A DNA stretch of 64,000 nucleotides from Planctomyces sp. SH-PL14 (lineage in GTDB: Bacteria > Planctomycetota > Planctomycetia > Planctomycetales > Planctomycetaceae): positions 496,001 to 560,000 of the forward strand of contig NZ_CP011270.1 of assembly GCF_001610835.1 (NCBI RefSeq). Direction: 5' to 3'. The notes beneath the pieces are model-generated. The model was not told where the DNA came from. It was given only the letters and a program-made list of their open reading frames with translations, and did no database searches. Position numbers and translations under genes: made by a program. Below are positions 1 through 62,620 of the stretch, one piece after another (within the stretch, counting starts at the first letter, position 1; every line of letters starts with the position of its first letter).

Positions 1-63
1 TTCGTCCAGCGTCCGTTCCTTCGGATCCGGCCCCGCGCGACGACAACCTAAGGAACGTATTGA

Positions 64-441
64 ATGGGTACGAAACTGTACGTGGGAAATCTTTCCTACA
101 ACACCACCAGCCAGTCGCTGCAGCAGGTGTTCGGCGAGCACGGCGAAGTCCGTTCGGCCGAAGTGGTCATGGATCGTGAAACGGGCCGTTCGAAGGGCTT
201 CGGCTTTGTCGAAATGGGCACGGATCAGGACGCTCAGGCCGCGATCTCCGCTCTGAACGGCGCTGAAGTCGATGGCCGGTCGCTGACCGTCAACGAAGCT
301 CGTCCGCGTGAAAGCCGCGGCGGCGGCGGCGGTGGATACGGCGGCGGCGGAGGCGGCGGCCGTGGTGGATACGGCGGCGGCGGAGGCGGCGGCCGTGGTG
401 GATACGGCGGCGGCGGTGGAGGCCGCGGCGGCCGTTACTAA
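64..441 (+). CDS. Gly-rich RRM RNA-binding protein
   Basis: This 125-residue protein consists of one RNA recognition motif (about residues 3-80) and a Gly/Arg/Tyr-rich tail (about 85-125). The RNP2 motif LYVGNL is at 5-10 and RNP1 KGFGFVEM at 44-51, so the RNA-contacting aromatic positions are intact. The tail is built from near-identical GGYGGGGGGGRG repeats. Bacterial proteins of this type, best known from cyanobacteria and also found in planctomycetes, bind single-stranded RNA and are often cold-induced; the exact target here is unknown. The ATG is preceded by AAGGAA. A strong intrinsic terminator lies about 40 nt after the stop, so the gene is probably monocistronic. Its promoter lies at or before the window edge. 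Confidence 0.95.
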   Translation: MGTKLYVGNLSYNTTSQSLQQVFGEHGEVRSAEVVMDRETGRSKGFGFVEMGTDQDAQAAISALNGAEVDGRSLTVNEARPRESRGGGGGGYGGGGGGGRGGYGGGGGGGRGGYGGGGGGRGGRY

Positions 442-51552: not shown

Positions 51553-51710
51553 CCGGGCCCGAGACCTCATGGAAATCGAGGGGGTCAAAGCTCATTGATG
51601 CCAATGTGTCTTTACCCTTTTTTATACCCCGAAACGAATCGCTCAGCCACACCGGCCCGTGCCAATCAGCCATGAGCTCCCGGAACCGGTGTCACGGGAG
51701 GGTGGCTGGG
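51553..51710. other. Imperfect REP-like hairpin region
   Basis: GGGGGTCAAAG (about 51578) and CTTTACCC (about 51610) form an imperfect inverted pair around GATGCCAATGTGT, followed by a TTTTTTAT tract. It could end transcription of the SGNH gene or be a small palindromic repeat. Confidence 0.45.
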
Positions 51711-51784
51711 GCCCTGTACCAGCATCACCTTCCTACTCGACGCCCGTGGCCCCCGTCTAACGCCTGTCAGCGTTGAAGTCGGTC
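51711..51784 (+). repeat. Repeat R, copy 1
   Basis: About 74 bp starting GCCCTGTACCAGCATCACCT and ending CAGCGTTGAAGTCGG. A second copy lies at 52628-52701 in the same orientation, with roughly 80 percent identity by eye. The two copies flank the frameshifted gene. Confidence 0.75.
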
Positions 51785-51893
51785 CCCAATTCGGAGGACT
51801 GGGGCCATGGCGTCCTTTCACTCGACCACGCTCAGTCTGCGACCGACCACTTTCCGATCATCAACGCACCATCCCGCTCCAGCCACTCCGCTG

Positions 51894-51933
51894 CCGCGCC
51901 CATGTGCAAAGCTTCCAGGGGCGTGCCGCCCGG
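51894..51933 (+). repeat. Palindromic repeat X, copy 1
   Basis: CCGCGCCC ... GCAAAGCTTCCAGGGGCG then TGCCGCCCGG. It belongs to a four-copy family whose better copies pair CACGCCCT with AGGGCGTG. Confidence 0.6.
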
Positions 51934-51959
51934 TTCGCGAGGCTCAGCACGCCATCCCC

Positions 51960-52579
51960 TCAGTCGTCTTTCGGACCGGTCGGTGCTGGAAGGCCGTTCC
52001 AGGTGCCGGGGAGAGTCATCCGTTCTGCGAAGTCGGTCTTTCTGACGATCCCCTTCTCGACGTGAAAGATGATCACCGCATTCGATTCCCGCCTCTCGTT
52101 GTCGTACTCGCCGACCTGAACGTGAATTCGTCCGGTGAACCACTCGGCAACGATCGGAAACTGCGGGCCGGGAATGATCTGCTCGTTCCGCCGTGTCTTG
52201 CCGTCAATCTGCCCGGTGATCTTGTCGAGGTAGAGTTTTGAGTCGCGGATTCCAAACTGCGCCACGTAGCCGGAGTTGTTCGCCGAGGAGGTCATCTCGA
52301 ACGGCGGCAGTTTCTGCGTTCCTGGTCCGATAGATCCCGGACCGTAATCCCACAATCCAGCATGGGGATCTCTTCAATCCCATACGTGTGATTGCCGAAC
52401 TCGATGAGCCGCGGGATCTGCCAGGTCGCCTGTGCCGGCGTCGCCCCCAAGAGATAGAGCCCGACCAGGAGAATGAGACCGTACCGGATGAAGCGGCCTG
52501 TGATGAACGTCGATGCCTCACCAGGGGCACCTGTGACGCCCCAATCCGCTGGTAAGGCTCGACCTAAACGCGAGGGCAT
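51960..52579 (-). pseudogene. Frameshifted secreted hypothetical gene
   Basis: Two frames join into one protein-like sequence. The first (from about 52579) has a hydrophobic signal-like stretch (IRYGLILLVGLYLLGATPAQA) and reads into IPRLIEFGNHTYGIEEIPMLD. The second frame, from about 52355, continues WDYGPGSIGPGTQKLPPFEM and ends GLPAPTGPKDD. A single missing base near 52350-52357 explains the break. The later part (GIRDSKLYLDKITGQIDGK, FPIVAEWFTGRIHVQVGEYD) looks like a genuine domain of unknown function. No convincing start codon precedes the signal stretch, so the 5' end may also be damaged by the adjoining repeats. Confidence 0.55.
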
Positions 52580-52627
52580 TGCAAGCTCGGCGAAGGATTC
52601 GAAGTGGAACCGCGGGCGGGCGCAGGA

Positions 52628-52701
52628 GCCCTGCACCAGCATCACGTTCATACTCGACGCTGATGGTCCCAGTCTATCGCCTCTCAGCGTTGAAGTCGGA
52701 T
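52628..52701 (+). repeat. Repeat R, copy 2
   Basis: Second copy of repeat R (see 51711-51784), starting GCCCTGCACCAGCATCACG and ending CAGCGTTGAAGTCGGA. Confidence 0.75.
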
Positions 52702-52702
52702 C

Positions 52703-52740
52703 GGGTGGCACGGCCCTGGAGGCTTTGCGGAAGGGCGTGG
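52703..52740 (-). repeat. Palindromic repeat X, copy 2 (inverted)
   Basis: GGGTGGCACGGCCCTGGAGG ... GGAAGGGCGTGG, the reverse complement of the X unit. Confidence 0.65.
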
Positions 52741-52787
52741 TCGCGCAGAATAGTGCCGCAATCGAAGCGACGACACACATGGCTTGA

Positions 52788-52829
52788 CCACGCCCTTTCG
52801 GAGTACCTACAGGGCGTGCCACCCGACCC
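52788..52829 (+). repeat. Palindromic repeat X, copy 3
   Basis: CCACGCCCTTTCGGAGTACC then TACAGGGCGTGCCACCCGAC. The arms CACGCCCT and AGGGCGTG pair perfectly. Confidence 0.75.
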
Positions 52830-52942
52830 GGAGCAACAGACCTTTCATCCCCATCTGCTGGCAGCTTTGGGCCAGCAGTGATTGGACGTCCAACTCGAAC
52901 TCGGCACTGCTCGTCAAAGCACGAGCAGTGGCACCCGGCGTG
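52828..52942 (+). repeat. 115-bp direct repeat Y, copy 1
   Basis: Starts CCGGAGCAACAGA and ends GCACCCGGCGTG. It contains the perfect hairpin CACTGCTCGT-CAAAGC-ACGAGCAGTG. The second copy, at 53030-53144, differs at three positions by eye. Confidence 0.92.
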
Positions 52943-53029
52943 ATAGTCGAGTCCCAGGTAAACACGTACGATCTCCATGTCTGTTGCTCCTGGTCTTGTG
53001 ATTGAACCCACCCGGCATCGTAGCCGGGA

Positions 53030-53144
53030 CCGGAGCAACAGATCTTTCATCCCCATCTGCTGGCAGCCTTGGGCCAGCAGTGATTGGAGGTCCAACTCGA
53101 ACTCGGCACTGCTCGTCAAAGCACGAGCAGTGGCACCCGGCGTG
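53030..53144 (+). repeat. 115-bp direct repeat Y, copy 2
   Basis: Direct repeat of 52828-52942 with three substitutions; the 10-bp hairpin stem is unchanged. An 87-bp unrelated spacer separates the copies. Confidence 0.92.
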
Positions 53145-53175
53145 CCACCCGATCCGACGGACGCTGGAACGCTCG

Positions 53176-53217
53176 CCACGCCCTTCCGGAGTACCTACAG
53201 GACGTGCCACCCGACCG
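53176..53217 (+). repeat. Palindromic repeat X, copy 4
   Basis: CCACGCCCTTCCGGAGTACC then TACAGGACGTGCCACCCGAC, near-identical to copy 3. It ends 18 bases before the stop codon of the convergent cyclase gene. Confidence 0.75.
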
Positions 53218-53234: not shown

Positions 53235-54311
53235 CTAAACGATTTCGAAAAGTCTGTAGATTCCCGGGATATTCTTTATGTCATTGATCTCACCCGCCGG
53301 TCCCGTCTTCACGGAATGAGACGTCCTCCCCTCCGTGGACTGAGACATCAAAATTTGCCCTCCCTGAGATCTTCCCTCAATTCGAGCGGCGAAGTTCACG
53401 TGTGGCCCCAGCGCAGTGAACTGGTCGCGAAACTCCGTTCCGACGCTCCCGACAAGAGCGCTCCCCGTGTGAATGCCACAACCCAATCCAATTCTAATAT
53501 CCTGAGGCGAATACAACTTCCAATCTACCATCCACCTATCACGCAATTCAACAAACGCCAATCTAAACTGCTGTGCCGCGTGACACGCGGCGACGGCCTC
53601 CTCCCGGCCATCCCTCGAATGCGGCGGAAGAGCACCGAATAACGCCATCACTCCATCGCCGATGAACTTATCAAGAACACCCCCATTCGAAAACACAATC
53701 TTAGCCGCAATATCGCAGTACTCTTTCAGAAAACCTGCTATCAGTGTCGGATGAGCCTTGAGGATTTCGCACAGCAACGAAAACCCCCGTATATCCCAAA
53801 AGACAATCGTGACGACTCTCTCAGATAACGCGAGCAATGATGGGTCCCGGTCGATTGCTCCGTACAATGTTCTATCAAAGTACCGTTGTGTCATCGCCAC
53901 CTTCCGTGACCACTCGCGGTAGCGAAGAGCAGCCCTGGCCTTGATATTAATCTCTTTAGCCGCAATCACCCCGCGTATATTCTTCTCTACAACGTCAAAG
54001 GCCCCGACGTCGAAGGCGGCGTACCGGTCGAGACTTTTCTCTTTTGCCGTGAATAGAATCGCCATAACATGCGGGTCAATCTCCCTTGCCCGCTGCAGCA
54101 TAGTCATGCCGCTCGCTTCCGATTTCATCACTAGGTCGGTAAGCACAACATCGATTGGTGACGTTGTGCCCACATGCTGTAGAAGCAGTGCTTCCCCTTC
54201 GTGTTCATTGGCGGCGACAACAAACTCCCACGCTGGATTCTCGTCTCCAAGTGCGCGGACCATTGCCTCTCGGTTGTGGACTTCATCATCAACGACCAGG
54301 ATTTTTGCCAT
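53235..54311 (-). CDS. Response regulator with class III nucleotide cyclase domain
   Basis: 358 residues. The receiver domain (1-125) has acidic pocket Asp8/Asp9, phospho-acceptor Asp59 in VVLTDL, Thr88 in ILFTAK and Lys110. A helical linker (115-165) leads to a class III adenylate/guanylate cyclase domain (166-355). Its metal-binding Asp173 (FWDIRGF) and Asp219 (FIGDGVMALFG), the purine-selecting pair Lys215 and Thr299, and transition-state residues Asn306 and Arg310 (VNFAARIE) are all present, so it should be active; the Lys/Thr pair favours ATP. It is encoded two bases after the histidine kinase stop. The receiver plus cyclase order matches the output half of cyanobacterial CyaC. The gene is visibly AT-richer than its surroundings. 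Confidence 0.92.
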   Translation of the reverse strand: MAKILVVDDEVHNREAMVRALGDENPAWEFVVAANEHEGEALLLQHVGTTSPIDVVLTDLVMKSEASGMTMLQRAREIDPHVMAILFTAKEKSLDRYAAFDVGAFDVVEKNIRGVIAAKEINIKARAALRYREWSRKVAMTQRYFDRTLYGAIDRDPSLLALSERVVTIVFWDIRGFSLLCEILKAHPTLIAGFLKEYCDIAAKIVFSNGGVLDKFIGDGVMALFGALPPHSRDGREEAVAACHAAQQFRLAFVELRDRWMVDWKLYSPQDIRIGLGCGIHTGSALVGSVGTEFRDQFTALGPHVNFAARIEGRSQGGQILMSQSTEGRTSHSVKTGPAGEINDIKNIPGIYRLFEIV

Positions 54312-54313
54312 AA

Positions 54314-56125
54314 TTACGAAGGCTTTCGTGTTTGCGAGCCAGAGTCAACTTTGTTGTATGGAAGATATATTTCAAACGTCGCCCCTTTGCCGTGCAATCC
54401 TACCTCGCGAATCGCTCCGCCATGCCCCTCAATGATTCGCCTGACCAGCGCAAGCCCGAGTCCGGTTCCGTGGTCATACGTCGTAAAGAATGCTTCGAAT
54501 ATCTGCTCCTTCAGATGAGGTTCAACCCCCGCGCCATTGTCAGAAAACTTGATGAGAACATACGCCCCTTTCGGGTCGACAAAAGAAGGAACTTGCTCTG
54601 CTGGGACGATCGACGCTTCGATCTCGATGACTCGCACCACTTCAGCCATCCAGTGAAGCGAATTTGCGGCCAGCTCATCCAAGACTTCTGCGATCCGCTC
54701 CGGATCGGCAAAAACCAACAGCTCAGGAGAGCAATCGATCTTGCAGTTAACACCTCGCGACCTGAGAGAGTGGCACGCGTCCTCAAGCAAAGGAAGCAGC
54801 GCTGTCTGGATTGGCGAAATGTGTTGAGCCCTCGCCAACGACTTGAATTGATCAACGATACTCTTCGCCTTTTCGACGGCACCTCTCATATTCACGACAA
54901 CTGATATGGCTTCCGCCTCGCGGTGCTCCTCTATTCTTTTTTGGAGCGGAGCTAGATCAGTCTCAATTGCAAATATAGGATTTCCTATTTTGTGCGCGGC
55001 TGAAAACGAAATATCCTTCCATATGGCGTCACGTTCGGCGCGAATGCGCAAACTCTTTTCTCGCTCTAGAGCACTGTTGGTGATTGCGAGGCGCTCAACG
55101 AGATCGACATTTTCGCGATATAATTCCTCAGGCCCCTTTCGGAACTTAGCTAGTGATCGCGCCTCATCCGAAAAGTACTTAAACCCGAGTTGCGGGAACT
55201 GCTGGACTAGCCGCGTCATGTAGTCGCGATCCCACACGCGAACTCTCACCGCCGTCGATGGATAACGTTTTGACCTTAGAAAGTGCCGTTCGTGTCTCTG
55301 CAGCAGGCCATCTTCTATGAATTCGTTCTTCAGAACAATTAAGAGGAGCGTCAGGGACGAGTCTTCCCGCCTACCCGGCCGAAGGCGATCGTCGATGTCA
55401 TGACCCCGACGGAGTTGGTAAAGGACTCGGTCTGGATCCCCATAAATCATCTCCAGAGCCTGTTCGGGCGGCATGCTTCTGCCGAGAGAGATCAGCCATT
55501 GCTCCAAATACTCGAAACCGTCGGGGTCCTTCTTGGGAAGCTCAGCAAGTAAATCGAACTCGGCAGACTCGCGATACCACTCAATTCGACGGAAGCCCAT
55601 TTGGGCAATCAGCTCGCGGCAGAGGTTTTCGATGTCTTCCGTCGCCAGGATATCCCAATTAACAAAAAATGGCGTTGACAGGCTGGCCGGTATCGGCAAT
55701 CGAACTCGTCCGGCGCCGGTGCGAACTGATCGGAGCCAACTGTGTACCAGAGAGACAAGATCTGCACGGCCTTCTGCTGTGCTCTTATACACATAGAGGG
55801 GCGACGATCTCAGCTCATTGGGAAGCTGGCGAGAATAATCGTCGCGAACTAATACTAAAGTGGGCTTCCCCATGGCCATAGATTGGCCTATTTGGAAGAA
55901 AATCCCACCATCAGAAGAAGAGATATCAGCGATTATACAATCGGAACTCGCTATCTCGGCAATAGGACTATCTGCGGGATTTCGCTGGAAATATTCCTCA
56001 TCGATAGGGGTAAACTGCTGATTTCTGCATGCTTTTTTGAGACTATCGAAGAGCTCTTCAAACGCTGGCAAGTATGGGATGGCGAGGAAGCATTGTCTTT
56101 TCGGCGATTCTTTTTTTTTGGCCAT
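54314..56125 (-). CDS. Histidine kinase with TIR/NDT-like N-terminus and possible Mrr-like domain
   Basis: 603 residues. Residues 10-96 resemble the TIR-like or nucleoside-deoxyribosyltransferase-like fold: CFLAIPY, then SDCIIADISSSDGGIFFQIG and GKPTLVLV. The position normally a catalytic Glu (VFYELG in relatives) is Gln78. Residues 155-320 (IENLCRELIAQMGFRRIEW, EFDLLAELP, VRVWDRDYMTRLVQQFPQLG) may be a degenerate Mrr-like or other alpha/beta domain; this is low confidence. A coiled coil (335-370) leads to the kinase: H box AAHKIGNP with His378, N box Asn488, G1 DNGAG, F box and G2 GTGLGLAL. It has no membrane helix, so it is a cytoplasmic sensor. The start is the ATG of MAKKKESPK; a GTG at 56140 is an alternative. 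The receiver-cyclase is two bases downstream. Confidence 0.85.
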   Translation of the reverse strand: MAKKKESPKRQCFLAIPYLPAFEELFDSLKKACRNQQFTPIDEEYFQRNPADSPIAEIASSDCIIADISSSDGGIFFQIGQSMAMGKPTLVLVRDDYSRQLPNELRSSPLYVYKSTAEGRADLVSLVHSWLRSVRTGAGRVRLPIPASLSTPFFVNWDILATEDIENLCRELIAQMGFRRIEWYRESAEFDLLAELPKKDPDGFEYLEQWLISLGRSMPPEQALEMIYGDPDRVLYQLRRGHDIDDRLRPGRREDSSLTLLLIVLKNEFIEDGLLQRHERHFLRSKRYPSTAVRVRVWDRDYMTRLVQQFPQLGFKYFSDEARSLAKFRKGPEELYRENVDLVERLAITNSALEREKSLRIRAERDAIWKDISFSAAHKIGNPIFAIETDLAPLQKRIEEHREAEAISVVVNMRGAVEKAKSIVDQFKSLARAQHISPIQTALLPLLEDACHSLRSRGVNCKIDCSPELLVFADPERIAEVLDELAANSLHWMAEVVRVIEIEASIVPAEQVPSFVDPKGAYVLIKFSDNGAGVEPHLKEQIFEAFFTTYDHGTGLGLALVRRIIEGHGGAIREVGLHGKGATFEIYLPYNKVDSGSQTRKPS

Positions 56126-56274: not shown

Positions 56275-56312
56275 AAATGAAATACTCCTTGCAACAACGG
56301 TGTCGCAAGGAG
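56275..56312 (-). terminator. Intrinsic terminator of nrdJ
   Basis: Stem CTCCTTGC / GCAAGGAG (56285-56292 and 56305-56312) with a 12-nt loop, followed on the minus strand by TATTTCATTTTG. It lies 26 nt past the nrdJ stop. Confidence 0.75.
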
Positions 56313-56338
56313 CGCAGGTCACGGCTGATACACGAGTG

Positions 56339-59300
56339 CTACGAGCACCCCATGCTCTGCCCACAGTTGTGGCAGAGGTAGCAGTTCCCGTTTCTCACCG
56401 TGATCGCTCCGCAGTTGTCACAGGCGGGGGCGTCGGATTGAAAACCGGCGAATTGGCTGTTGCGGCTGGTGGGCTGGAGCGTGGCGGACGGGGACTGGAG
56501 GCTGGGGAGGAGGGCAATCAGCCGGTTGGTGCCGGGGTGATGGCCGTTTCCGTTGCCGTTCGTCTGCCCGTTCGCCGGATGCTCCGCTTTCACCTGGGCG
56601 GCGTCCTTGGGGCTGGCGGCTGACGGCTGGGGGCTGGCAGCAGCGGCGCCCTGGGCGACCGTCGGGACGTTCCCGGCGGCCGCCGTCACTTCAGAGGACG
56701 CGGCAGTCTCCCCGGAGTCGCCGGCGGACTGGCCGTAGCCGGCCGCGGCGAGGTTGCGGTTGGGACTGTTCGCTTCCCGGTAGCCGGCGAGGAAGGTGAT
56801 CCCCAGGAACCGGAAGATGTAGTCGACCACGCTCTTGGCGTGCGGGATGTCCGGGTTGCTTGTCCAGCCGCTCGGCTCGAAGCGGGCGTGGCTGAACTTG
56901 TTCACCAGGGCATCGAGGGGGACACCGTACTGGAGGGCCAGCGAGGTTTCCGTTCCGATGACGTCCATCAGGCCCCCGATGGTGGACCCTTCCTTGGCCA
57001 TCGTGATGAAGAGCTCGCCCGGCGTGCCGTCTTCGAAGAGGCCGACCGTGATGTAGCCCTCGTGACCGCCGACGTTGAACTTGTGCGTCAGCGAGTGGCG
57101 GGTGTCCGGCAGGCGGCGGCGGACCGGCTGGGCCGAGACCGTGGCGACTTCCGAACCGGAGGTCGAGCCGGCAGTGCCCCCCTTCTTCTGGTCCTTCGAC
57201 GTGTTGAGGGGCTGGCTCTGCTTGGAGCCGTCGCGGTAGATCGCGAGGGCCTTGAGGCCGAGCTTCCAGCCTTCGATATAGGCCTGCTCGATGTCCTCGA
57301 CGGTCGAGTCGGCCGGCATGTTGACCGTCTTCGAGATCGCTCCCGAGAGGAACGGCTGGGCCGCCGCCATCATGGTGACGTGGGCCTTCCAGGCGATCGT
57401 TCGGGTTCCCTTGGCCGCCTTGAAGGCACAGTCGAAGACCGGGAGGTGCTCACCCTTGAGCTCGGGGGCCCCTTCGATGGTCTCCTCCTCTTCCATGTAC
57501 TTGAGGATCCCGTCGATCTGCGGCTGGTCGTAGCCGAGGGTCTTGAGGGCGTGCGGGACCGTGCGGTTGATGATCTTCATGATCCCCCCGCCGGCGAGCT
57601 GCTTGTACTTGATGAGCGCGATGTCCGGCTCGATGCCGGTGGTGTCGCAGTCCATCATGAAGGCGATCGTGCCGGTCGGAGCGAGCACCGTCGCCTGGGC
57701 GTTGCGGTAGCCGTGCCGGCGGCCGAGCTGGAGGGCCTCGTTCCAGACCTGGCGGGCGGCATCGCGGAGGTACTGCGGGCAGGCGGGATGGATCTTTTCG
57801 ACCGCGTCCCGGTGCATCTGCATGACCTGCAGCATCGAGGCCTCGTTCTCCTTGTAGCCGGCGAACGGACCGATGTGCCCGGCGATCTGGGCGCTGGTGG
57901 CGTAGCCCTGGCCGTTGAGGAGCGCCGTGAGGGCTCCGCAGATGCCGCGGCCGGCATCGCTGTCGTACGGCATTCCCATGGTCATCAGCAGGCTGCCGAG
58001 GTTGGCGTAGCCGAGACCGAGGGGCCGGAACATGTGGGAGTTCTCAGCGATCGCCGGCGTGGGGTAGCTGGCGTGATCGACCAGGATTTCCTGGGCGGTG
58101 ATCATGATCGCACAGGCCCGGCGGAACCGCTCGACATCGAACGTGCCGTCGTCCTTGAGGCACTTCTTGAGGTTGATCGACGACAGGTTGCAGGCGGTGT
58201 CGTCGAGGAACATGTACTCCGAGCAGGGGTTCGACGCGTTGATCGGACCGCTCTTCTTGCAGGTGTGCCACTTGTTGATCGTGGTCTCGTACTGCACGCC
58301 CGGGTCACCGCAGAACCAGGCCCCTTCAGACATCTTCCGCATGAGTTCGCGGGCCTTGAAGGTCGGTCCCGCGTGGCTGGGATTGGTGACCCAATGCGTC
58401 CGCCATTCGCCGTCATGCTCGACGGCGTGCATGAACTCATCGCTGATGCGGACCGAGAGGTTCGCATTCTGGAACATGATGGAGGAGTACGCTTCGCCGT
58501 TGAAGTTGGAGTCGTACTCGCCGCTGTCGATGAGGATGCGGGCCTTCTTTTCTTCCTTCAGCTTGCACTCGATGAAGTCGAGGATGTCCGGATGCCAGTC
58601 CTTGAGCGACTGCATCTTGGCGGCGCGGCGGGTCTTTCCGCCCGACTTCACAACGGCGGCGATCTGGTCATAGACCCGCATGAACGAGAGCGGGCCGGAG
58701 GGGGTGCCGCCGCCGGAGAGCTTTTCCCGCGAGCTGCGGATGGTGGAGAGGTCGGTCCCGGTGCCGGAGCCGAACTTGAAGAGCATCGCCTCGCTGGTGG
58801 CGAGACGCATGATCCCCTCCATGTTGTCGTCGACCGACTGGATGAAGCAGGCGGAGGCCTGGGGGTATTCGTACGGGGTTTCCGGGCGGCGGATCTGGTG
58901 GGTCTTGACGTCGAAGTTGTAGTTGCCGACCGAGCCCTTGATGCCGTACTGGTGGTAGAGGCCGACGTTGAACCAGACCGGCGAGTTGAAGGCGGCGTGC
59001 TGGTGCAGGCAGAGCCAGGCGAGTTCGCGGTAGAAGTTTTCGCCGTCGCTGGTCGTGGAGAAGTAGCCGTCCTGGAGGCCCCAGTCCGCGATGGTGCGGG
59101 CGACGCGGTGGATCACCTGCTTGACCGACTTTTCCCGCTCGTTGGTGCCGTGCTCTCCGAAGAAATACTTGGAGACGACGACGTTGGTGGCGAGGGCCGA
59201 CCAGTCCTTGGGAACTTCACAATCGGTCTGCTCGAAGAGGACCTTTCCGTTTTCGTCCTTGATCGCCGCGGTGCGGTAGTCCCACTCGACGGTGTCGAAC

Positions 59301-59389
59301 GGGTCGCCGGAGACGGGACAGAAGTAGGGCTCGATCCGCATCGGTTCGACACCGTGGCCGGTTGGGGAAGTTCCTTTGGCCTGCTGCAT
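56339..59389 (-). CDS. nrdJ: Adenosylcobalamin-dependent ribonucleotide reductase (class II)
   Basis: 1016 residues. The N-terminal region (YFCPVSGDPFDTVEWDYRTA) and the reductase core are as in long NrdJ proteins: FNSPVWFNVGL, SNPCSEYMFLDDTACNLSSINL, ATVLAPTGTIAFMMDCDTTGIEPD. An Ala/Gly-rich linker (about 850-970) leads to a C-terminal zinc ribbon (CDNCGAITVRNGNCYLCHNCG). It reduces ribonucleotides without oxygen dependence, using B12. I chose the ATG at 59389 because AAAGGAA precedes it; the ATG at 59413 is weaker. A hairpin with arms ACAATGCACAG / CTGTGCATTGT lies about 200 bases upstream. No cobalamin riboswitch was recognised. Confidence 0.95.
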   Translation of the reverse strand: MQQAKGTSPTGHGVEPMRIEPYFCPVSGDPFDTVEWDYRTAAIKDENGKVLFEQTDCEVPKDWSALATNVVVSKYFFGEHGTNEREKSVKQVIHRVARTIADWGLQDGYFSTTSDGENFYRELAWLCLHQHAAFNSPVWFNVGLYHQYGIKGSVGNYNFDVKTHQIRRPETPYEYPQASACFIQSVDDNMEGIMRLATSEAMLFKFGSGTGTDLSTIRSSREKLSGGGTPSGPLSFMRVYDQIAAVVKSGGKTRRAAKMQSLKDWHPDILDFIECKLKEEKKARILIDSGEYDSNFNGEAYSSIMFQNANLSVRISDEFMHAVEHDGEWRTHWVTNPSHAGPTFKARELMRKMSEGAWFCGDPGVQYETTINKWHTCKKSGPINASNPCSEYMFLDDTACNLSSINLKKCLKDDGTFDVERFRRACAIMITAQEILVDHASYPTPAIAENSHMFRPLGLGYANLGSLLMTMGMPYDSDAGRGICGALTALLNGQGYATSAQIAGHIGPFAGYKENEASMLQVMQMHRDAVEKIHPACPQYLRDAARQVWNEALQLGRRHGYRNAQATVLAPTGTIAFMMDCDTTGIEPDIALIKYKQLAGGGIMKIINRTVPHALKTLGYDQPQIDGILKYMEEEETIEGAPELKGEHLPVFDCAFKAAKGTRTIAWKAHVTMMAAAQPFLSGAISKTVNMPADSTVEDIEQAYIEGWKLGLKALAIYRDGSKQSQPLNTSKDQKKGGTAGSTSGSEVATVSAQPVRRRLPDTRHSLTHKFNVGGHEGYITVGLFEDGTPGELFITMAKEGSTIGGLMDVIGTETSLALQYGVPLDALVNKFSHARFEPSGWTSNPDIPHAKSVVDYIFRFLGITFLAGYREANSPNRNLAAAGYGQSAGDSGETAASSEVTAAAGNVPTVAQGAAAASPQPSAASPKDAAQVKAEHPANGQTNGNGNGHHPGTNRLIALLPSLQSPSATLQPTSRNSQFAGFQSDAPACDNCGAITVRNGNCYLCHNCGQSMGCS

Positions 59390-59586
59390 GGCAATTCCTT
59401 TTGATTCGTGCATCTTGCACTCTCACTCATTATCCAGGGACGGAAACGCACAAAACAAAACATCATCCGCCTCGAACCCCACAGTTCGAGTTGGATGCAG
59501 ATTCCAGGTTGGGACACTGAAGAGGGCGACCGGTCAGGACGACGGGCCGAAGGGAAGGGGGCGTGTCTCGACGGGAGCAAAGGGGG

Positions 59587-60082: not shown

Positions 60083-60403
60083 CCGGGTCCAGGGGCACCC
60101 TGGTCAGGGAGTGCAGGGGGCAGAATGCCCCTTGCCCGCCGGAGGCCTGGCTCGTCGTAAACCATCGGAAGGAGACGGTGTCCAAGCGCGGACACCGTGT
60201 CGGATGCCCCCTCACCAACCCGCGGGGATTCCAGATCGAGGGTTCCGGTGTGAGGGAGTCGTCAACGCCAGTTCCCTCAAGCGGCCGCCCGTTGTGTCCC
60301 ACGGTTCCTCGCCGGAATGCCTCCGGCGGCAAGGGGTGCCCCCTTGACCCCAGCGGCCGTCGCACGTTGGGTTTGAGCTATGGACGCCTTGCCGGCGAGG
60401 ACG
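60083..60403 (+). repeat. 320-bp dispersed element, copy G
   Basis: Full copy between divergent nrdJ and glyS. The first hairpin has diverged (CACCCTGGTCAGGGAG) and the second is GGGGGCAGAATGCCCC with an enlarged loop. The 3' hairpin is AAGGGG-TG-CCCCCTT. Confidence 0.88.
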
Positions 60404-62299: not shown

Positions 62300-62620
62300 C
62301 CGGGGGTCCAGGGGCACCCTGGTGGGGAGTGCAGAGGGGCAACGCCCCTCTGCCCGCCGGAGGCCCTCTCGTCGAGAGATGTCTGAAGGAGTGAGTGTCC
62401 AAGCGCGGACGACGTGCCGGATGCCCCCTCACCAACCCACGGGGATTGCAACGCCAGCGGTGTGATGTGGGGGAGTCCTCAACGCCGGTTCCACAAAGGG
62501 AACGGCCGTTGTGTCCCACGGTTCCTCATGGAAGCGCCTCCGGCGGCAAGGGGTGACCCCCTTGACCCCGGCTGCCGTCGCACGTTGGGTTTGAGCGATC
62601 GAGTCGCGCCGGCAAGGACG
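62300..62620 (+). repeat. 320-bp dispersed element, copy H
   Basis: Full copy beginning 12 bases after the glyS stop, same orientation. The hairpins are AGGGGCAACGCCCCT, CTCTCGTCGAGAG, TGTCCAAGCGCGGACG and AAGGGG-TGA-CCCCCTT. Confidence 0.9.

Follow-up and report, generated by a model that had tools for sequence, protein, structure and literature searches.

Enzymes with an NDT or DNPH1 fold offer the closest precedents for the sensor domain considered here. DNPH1 has a catalytic triad of Y24, D80, and E104, and the engineered E104Q variant is inactive yet binds the substrate hmdUMP (PMC10603095); a further residue, Ser98, serves the phosphate. Of the CtNDT mutants, E88A shows no activity; E88Q is described as less active, and its rate of deoxyribosylation was not significantly altered, so the exchange of Glu for Gln need not by itself kill NDT chemistry. 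The same E88Q mutant has been crystallized with clofarabine (8pqq), and Asp82 of CtNDT lies near the 5'-OH. More broadly, the TIR-DrHyd-SLOG class includes noncatalytic nucleotide sensors (PMC9503650). Further sources consulted were PMC12751057, PMC7159879, and PMC10913048. Within the titles, abstracts, and passages surveyed in one library, we found no description of a histidine kinase fused to an NDT, TIR, or nuclease domain.

Our results point to such a fusion in a planctomycete. The window, that is, the whole 64,000-nucleotide stretch of DNA that was analyzed from Planctomyces sp. SH-PL14, contains an open frame that runs from an ATG at 56125 to its end at 54314. From the N to the C terminus, the product comprises an NDT-like domain, a nuclease-like domain, a coiled linker, a DHp region, and a HATPase_c domain (Table 1). 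The initial annotation had described a TIR- or NDT-like domain at 55835-56125 as the input of a sensor, and this segment (minus strand, residues 1-97) is indeed the N-terminal part of a histidine kinase. Judged by its residues, the output side of the kinase appears intact: the phospho-acceptor His and the ATP-binding boxes are all present, with His378, Asn488, Asp529/Gly531/Gly533, and Gly553/555/557 invariant in all five orthologues. Our preferred reading, to which we give a probability of roughly 55%, is that the kinase and its downstream neighbor form a rare two-gene, two-component cassette in which two enzyme-derived, noncatalytic input domains convert a signal into a cyclic nucleotide, and in which Gln78 is one of several residues that the site could accept once catalysis was gone. 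The cassette looks undescribed.

Table 1. Features of the kinase and cyclase genes and of the adjoining upstream region, in window coordinates
Feature	Coordinates	Strand	Basis or remark
Soluble sensor histidine kinase, 603 aa	54314..56125	-	Open frame, Pfam, orthologues L031-L034
NDT/DNPH1-like Rossmann domain, residues 9-137	55715..56101	-	PF05014 E 7e-5; model vs DNPH1 Z 14.2
Gln78 codon CAA, at the nucleophile Glu position (DNPH1 E104, CtNDT E88)	55892..55894	-	Alignments
Middle domain, residues 150-320, PD-(D/E)xK nuclease-like	55166..55678	-	Mrr_cat, VIA, alignment
DHp (phospho-acceptor) region, residues 371-445	54791..55015	-	His378 invariant in AAHKxGNP
HATPase_c, residues 474-590	54356..54706	-	Pfam PF02518 E 6.5e-16
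Partner, 358 aa, receiver (Asp59 invariant) fused to class III nucleotide cyclase	53235..54311	-	PF00072 E 3e-14, PF00211 E 1.6e-15
Terminator-like hairpin between nrdJ-like gene and kinase	56284..56313	-	13-pair stem; regional hit total not above shuffles

Sequence and structure comparisons agree on the identity of the N-terminal domain, for which the earlier wording "TIR or NDT" was fair. The Pfam family Nuc_deoxyrib_tr (PF05014) matched the whole kinase with an E value of 7.1e-5 (23.4 bits) and the first 112 residues alone with one of 7.8e-6 (26.5 bits), both below the curated cutoff of 28.8 bits. When the domain was compared with the PDB by phmmer, it matched Rcl/DNPH1 (E 0.002) and the Chroococcidiopsis NDT 8pqq (E 0.005). 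An AlphaFold2 model built from a five-row alignment of the five orthologues (pLDDT 71.8) provided the structure-based comparison that the initial annotation had proposed. Its best structural match was human DNPH1 (8rpt_B; Z 14.2, rmsd 2.2, 123 aligned residues; Foldseek E 5e-5), followed by rat Rcl, MilB, and CtNDT, whereas the TIR domains of SfSTING, SPARTA, and RPPT-TIR scored 12.1, 11.8, and 11.6, respectively. As modeled, the fold thus ranks DNPH1, NDT, and MilB ahead of TIR domains among the families that VIA-align lists, a listing from which absence does not speak against a family.

The motif that had drawn attention to the domain, SDCIIADISSSDGGIFFQIG, spans residues 61-80 of the kinase, and within it the nucleophile Glu of YELG was said to be replaced by Gln. 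This replacement is borne out, since phmmer places Gln78 opposite the Glu of YELG in Rcl and opposite the engineered Gln88 of 8pqq. The further proposal, that the domain binds a ligand without cleaving it by virtue of this Gln, stands in part: the Glu is lost, and an engineered Glu-to-Gln change can leave binding intact, but the Gln is not conserved and the change is not isolated. The Tyr/Asp/Glu triad of DNPH1 reads Phe13/Pro54/Gln78 in the kinase, and all three CtNDT equivalents (Y7, D62, and E88) are changed as well. This register draws on phmmer and profile alignments together with the model ranges (7..135 to 18..162; 7..137 to 1..154), Pro54 being placed at the catalytic Asp by sequence alignment only. 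At position 72 the kinase has Asp where DNPH1 has Ser98, and this Asp72 aligns with Asp82 of CtNDT.

Orthologues reveal how loosely these positions are held. There are five in all, the window protein included, and the other four share the full architecture: L031 from Acidobacteria, L032 from Coatesbacteria, L033 from Blastocatellia, and L034 from Planctomycetota. Four derive from metagenome-assembled genomes, and the L033 record is frameshifted. Position 13 is Phe throughout (FFFFF), and position 54 reads P/A/V/I/gap, never Asp. Position 78 reads Q/A/E/D/Q, with Ala in L031, Glu in L032 (which retains NPNVFFEMG), Asp in L033, and Gln in L034 by alignment within a decayed stretch that lacks the motif. 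Conservation of the Gln among orthologues, which the initial annotation had proposed to check, was therefore not observed, and L032 is the very kind of orthologue, one with Glu, that it had named beforehand as contrary evidence. Four different residues at one position imply at least three changes; the five-leaf orthologue tree has support values of only 52 and 59%.

The kinase family also differs from related domains in other proteins. From 35 hits in loci retrieved through the profile searches, we retained 33 domains that covered at least 90 model positions and dropped two shorter ones; in the host proteins the domain is fused to, among others, Ser/Thr kinase or FGE-sulfatase domains. One protein of the same phylum (L044:676-1914) is a Ser/Thr protein kinase whose C-terminal NDT/TIR-like domain keeps the Glu. 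At position 78, Glu occurs in 31 of the 33 relatives versus one of the five orthologues (Fisher test, p = 0.001, or 0.0015 with the relatives thinned to 29, on rows that are not fully independent). Likewise, Asp104 of the PFD motif is present in 31 of 33 relatives versus none of five orthologues. Because Phe13 also occurs in 26 of the 33 TIR-like relatives and their Asp is not strictly conserved, the features that set the kinase family apart from its relatives come down to the Glu and the PFD motif.

Constraint is distributed unevenly along the kinase. The window protein and its orthologues are 19-28% identical across the NDT-like domain, 36-47% across the middle domain (omitting a 24-residue L033 fragment at 75%), 52-73% across DHp, and 42-55% across HATPase; invariant positions number 7 of 129, 34 of 171, 30 of 75, and 41 of 147, respectively. 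By these alignments the NDT-like domain is the fastest-diverging part of the protein. Such a pattern would fit a domain freed from catalysis, and fast adaptation to different ligands would look alike. Four cysteines of the kinase (Cys12, Cys63, Cys169, and Cys451) are invariant across all orthologues and might have a redox or metal role. Two of them, Cys12 and Cys63, belong to the seven invariant positions of the NDT-like domain; in the relatives, Cys12 is common (14 of 33), and Cys63 does not rank with the four most frequent residues.

Since the orthologues vary at position 78, the relatives keep Glu, the triad has become Phe/Pro/Gln, and the domain diverges fastest, catalysis was probably lost by drift, and Gln78 is probably neither a conserved ligand trap nor special as a replacement. 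It is conceivable that Gln78 was instead selected as a natural substrate trap, letting the domain take up a nucleoside, a nucleotide, or a ligand resembling NAD, leave it uncleaved, and report its level. DNPH1 E104Q, inactive but able to bind, fits this view, the clofarabine complex of CtNDT E88Q provides a second instance of an occupied Gln mutant, and Asp72 has its counterpart near the 5'-OH in CtNDT. Yet a trap sits poorly with orthologues that carry Ala, Glu, Asp, or a degraded stretch, with the loss of the Tyr and Asp that complete the triad, and with a domain in which just seven residues are invariant, and we regard selection for trapping as improbable. We regard it as very improbable that the domain is still an enzyme, acting through another acidic residue (e.g., Asp72, the Glu of L032, or the Asp of L033) and feeding its product to the kinase. 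The acidic residues at position 78 in L032 and L033 and the residual activity of CtNDT E88Q lend some weight to this idea, and with its Glu-containing motif L032 suggests that some members might be active. Against it, the Asp of DNPH1 and NDTs is matched by Asp in none of the five orthologues, L031 has Ala at position 78, and the PFD motif of the relatives is gone from all five.

The middle domain may also descend from an enzyme. Mrr_cat weakly matched four of the five members (best E 0.011), the window member being the one without a match. Modeled alone, the domain was most similar in VIA to the nuclease domain of Avs4 (Z 7.6), followed by MspJI (6.3), AspBHI (6.0), and HamA (5.5), all under the certainty level of Z 8, and Foldseek returned nothing for this model at E ≤ 0.001. 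Asp191 is invariant in the five orthologues and a DPDGF hairpin is conserved, while the position of the (E/Q)xK lysine, set by eye, is occupied by Ser/Ala213-x-Gly/Cys215 (Ser213-x-Gly215 in the window). This weak evidence hints at a PD-(D/E)xK nuclease-like domain without its lysine; if the fold is right, the middle domain, too, would be a noncatalytic copy.

The contrast in conservation between the two input domains raises another possibility, namely that the middle domain is the real sensor and that the NDT-like domain binds no ligand and plays a structural part, contributing to dimerization or spacing. Conservation is far higher in the middle domain, DPDGF included, and its profile (A4) matched one of 99 genomes and found nothing in the other 98. 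In addition, the NDT motif of L034 has decayed while the protein and its partner persist. Nonetheless, the N-terminal domain has been kept in all five orthologues, and its two retained cysteines would be needless in an inert spacer. We therefore consider a purely structural role rather unlikely, and favor the reading in which both domains provide input.

Immediately downstream, 2 nt beyond the kinase gene, starts the gene for the receiver-cyclase partner. It is the next gene after the kinase in all five loci, and the other four partners are 58-63% identical to that of the window. Invariant residues comprise Asp59 and Lys110 in the receiver and Asp173, Lys215, Asp219, Thr299, Asn306, and Arg310 in the cyclase, the latter being what we take to be the metal, purine, and transition-state residues. 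Lys215 and Thr299 presumably indicate ATP as the substrate, and cAMP is thus the likely product. Models of PycC matched the cyclase domain (best E 3e-20), as they might any class III cyclase, and the Pycsar TIR effector model reached an E value of only 0.039 on the kinase; assignment to the Pycsar defense systems is unsupported.

The cassette is rare. A scan of 84,980 species genomes with six peptide patterns from the window kinase matched 47 stretches, among which 12 loci encode a relative; four of these have the whole architecture and eight the kinase core only. At E ≤ 1e-8, profile A1 matched 40 of 294 Planctomycetota genomes and 24 of 297 genomes from the phylum of L031, but in each draw all hits except one were confined to the NDT-like domain and the linker after it; the exception was the genome that had supplied an alignment row. 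A small profile search matched two of four genomes, one in full. Profile searches at E ≤ 1e-30 returned one of 8, one of 130, and one of 45 genomes, each a known source, and at 1e-50 the partner profile (A3) matched one of 396 and one of 392. Across the genomes sampled from the two phyla, these searches gave no full match other than the known sources. A search for relatives with the whole kinase returned generic kinases apart from the query itself. There was no match in plasmids, and profile A1 had none in viral contigs, where the partner profile found 15 loci (29-36% identity), mostly for the cyclase part only.

Base composition sets the two genes apart from their surroundings as well. GC3 is 0.54 for the kinase and 0.58 for the partner, compared with 0.90 for nrdJ and 0.85 for glyS, neighbors that we take, from sequence features, to be a class II (nrdJ-like) ribonucleotide reductase gene and a glycyl-tRNA-synthetase-like gene. 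Given its rarity and composition, the simplest reading is that the cassette, scattered over distant phyla, has moved laterally. Just downstream of the cassette, direct repeats cluster at 51705-53216 (115 nt at 97%, 78 nt at 85%, and 41 nt at 95%), perhaps a trace of its insertion. Other direct repeats in intergenic DNA (220 nt at 75% identity and 46 nt at 91%) occur at 60124-60384 and 62341-62602, flanking the region of the glycyl-tRNA-synthetase-like gene. The nrdJ-like gene (56339-59413, minus strand) lies directly upstream of the kinase in the same direction, and NDT enzymes handle deoxynucleosides. We rejected a functional tie between the two, however, as a terminator-like hairpin separates them and the orthologues have other upstream neighbors.

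Under the cassette reading, a cytoplasmic kinase would sense through its NDT/DNPH1-like (DrHyd-type) Rossmann domain and its PD-(D/E)xK nuclease-like domain. When these N-terminal domains change, the coiled linker would relay this to the dimeric core of DHp and HATPase, where His378 would be phosphorylated and its phosphate transferred to Asp59 of the neighboring response regulator. The fused class III cyclase would then synthesize a cyclic nucleotide, with cAMP as the most probable product. The NDT-like domain itself would not cleave glycosidic bonds and may serve as a regulatory input or dimerization module. It is tempting to extend this scheme to a mobile cassette in which a paired pseudo-nucleosidase and pseudo-nuclease detect stress affecting nucleic acids or nucleotides (DNA that is damaged or foreign, or a nucleoside that is modified) and trigger a cyclic-nucleotide response, possibly serving as a defense or DNA-damage alarm. 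We hold this extension to be a long shot; if true, the cassette would be a signaling counterpart of the TIR, DrHyd, and nuclease effectors of prokaryotic immunity. More generally, two folds common in prokaryotic conflict systems, apparently noncatalytic and wired to a kinase and a cyclase, allow the reuse of effector folds as sensors to be tested. With Ala, Glu, Asp, and Gln all found at one site, loss of catalysis becomes testable in natural variants. The headline Gln substitution is ordinary; the cassette around Gln78 is the useful result.

Several described systems resemble parts of the locus. Residues 9-137 share with DNPH1/Rcl and the NDTs (PF05014, DrHyd superfamily) the fold, the IAD and FFxIG motifs, and a weak but real sequence match, but the domain of the kinase lacks the catalytic Tyr, Asp, and Glu, falls under the Pfam cutoff, and is fused to a histidine kinase. 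Prokaryotic defense TIR domains such as those of SPARTA and STING-TIR have a related Rossmann fold (Z 11.6-12.1) with an equivalent Glu position; in the kinase that Glu is absent, no defense partner was recognized, and the TIR fold ranks under DNPH1 and NDT. With Mrr/PD-(D/E)xK nucleases, including the nuclease domains of Avs4, MspJI, and AspBHI, the middle domain appears to share the order of helices and strands, and it has weak Mrr_cat matches whose E values are not significant, yet it has no active-site lysine and carries the conserved DPDGF hairpin. Finally, the adjacent kinase and receiver genes, the kinase boxes, the receiver Asp, and the cyclase residues are those of two-component systems with a receiver and a class III cyclase output. 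Unlike those systems, this one has a soluble kinase whose input consists of two degenerate domains derived from enzymes.
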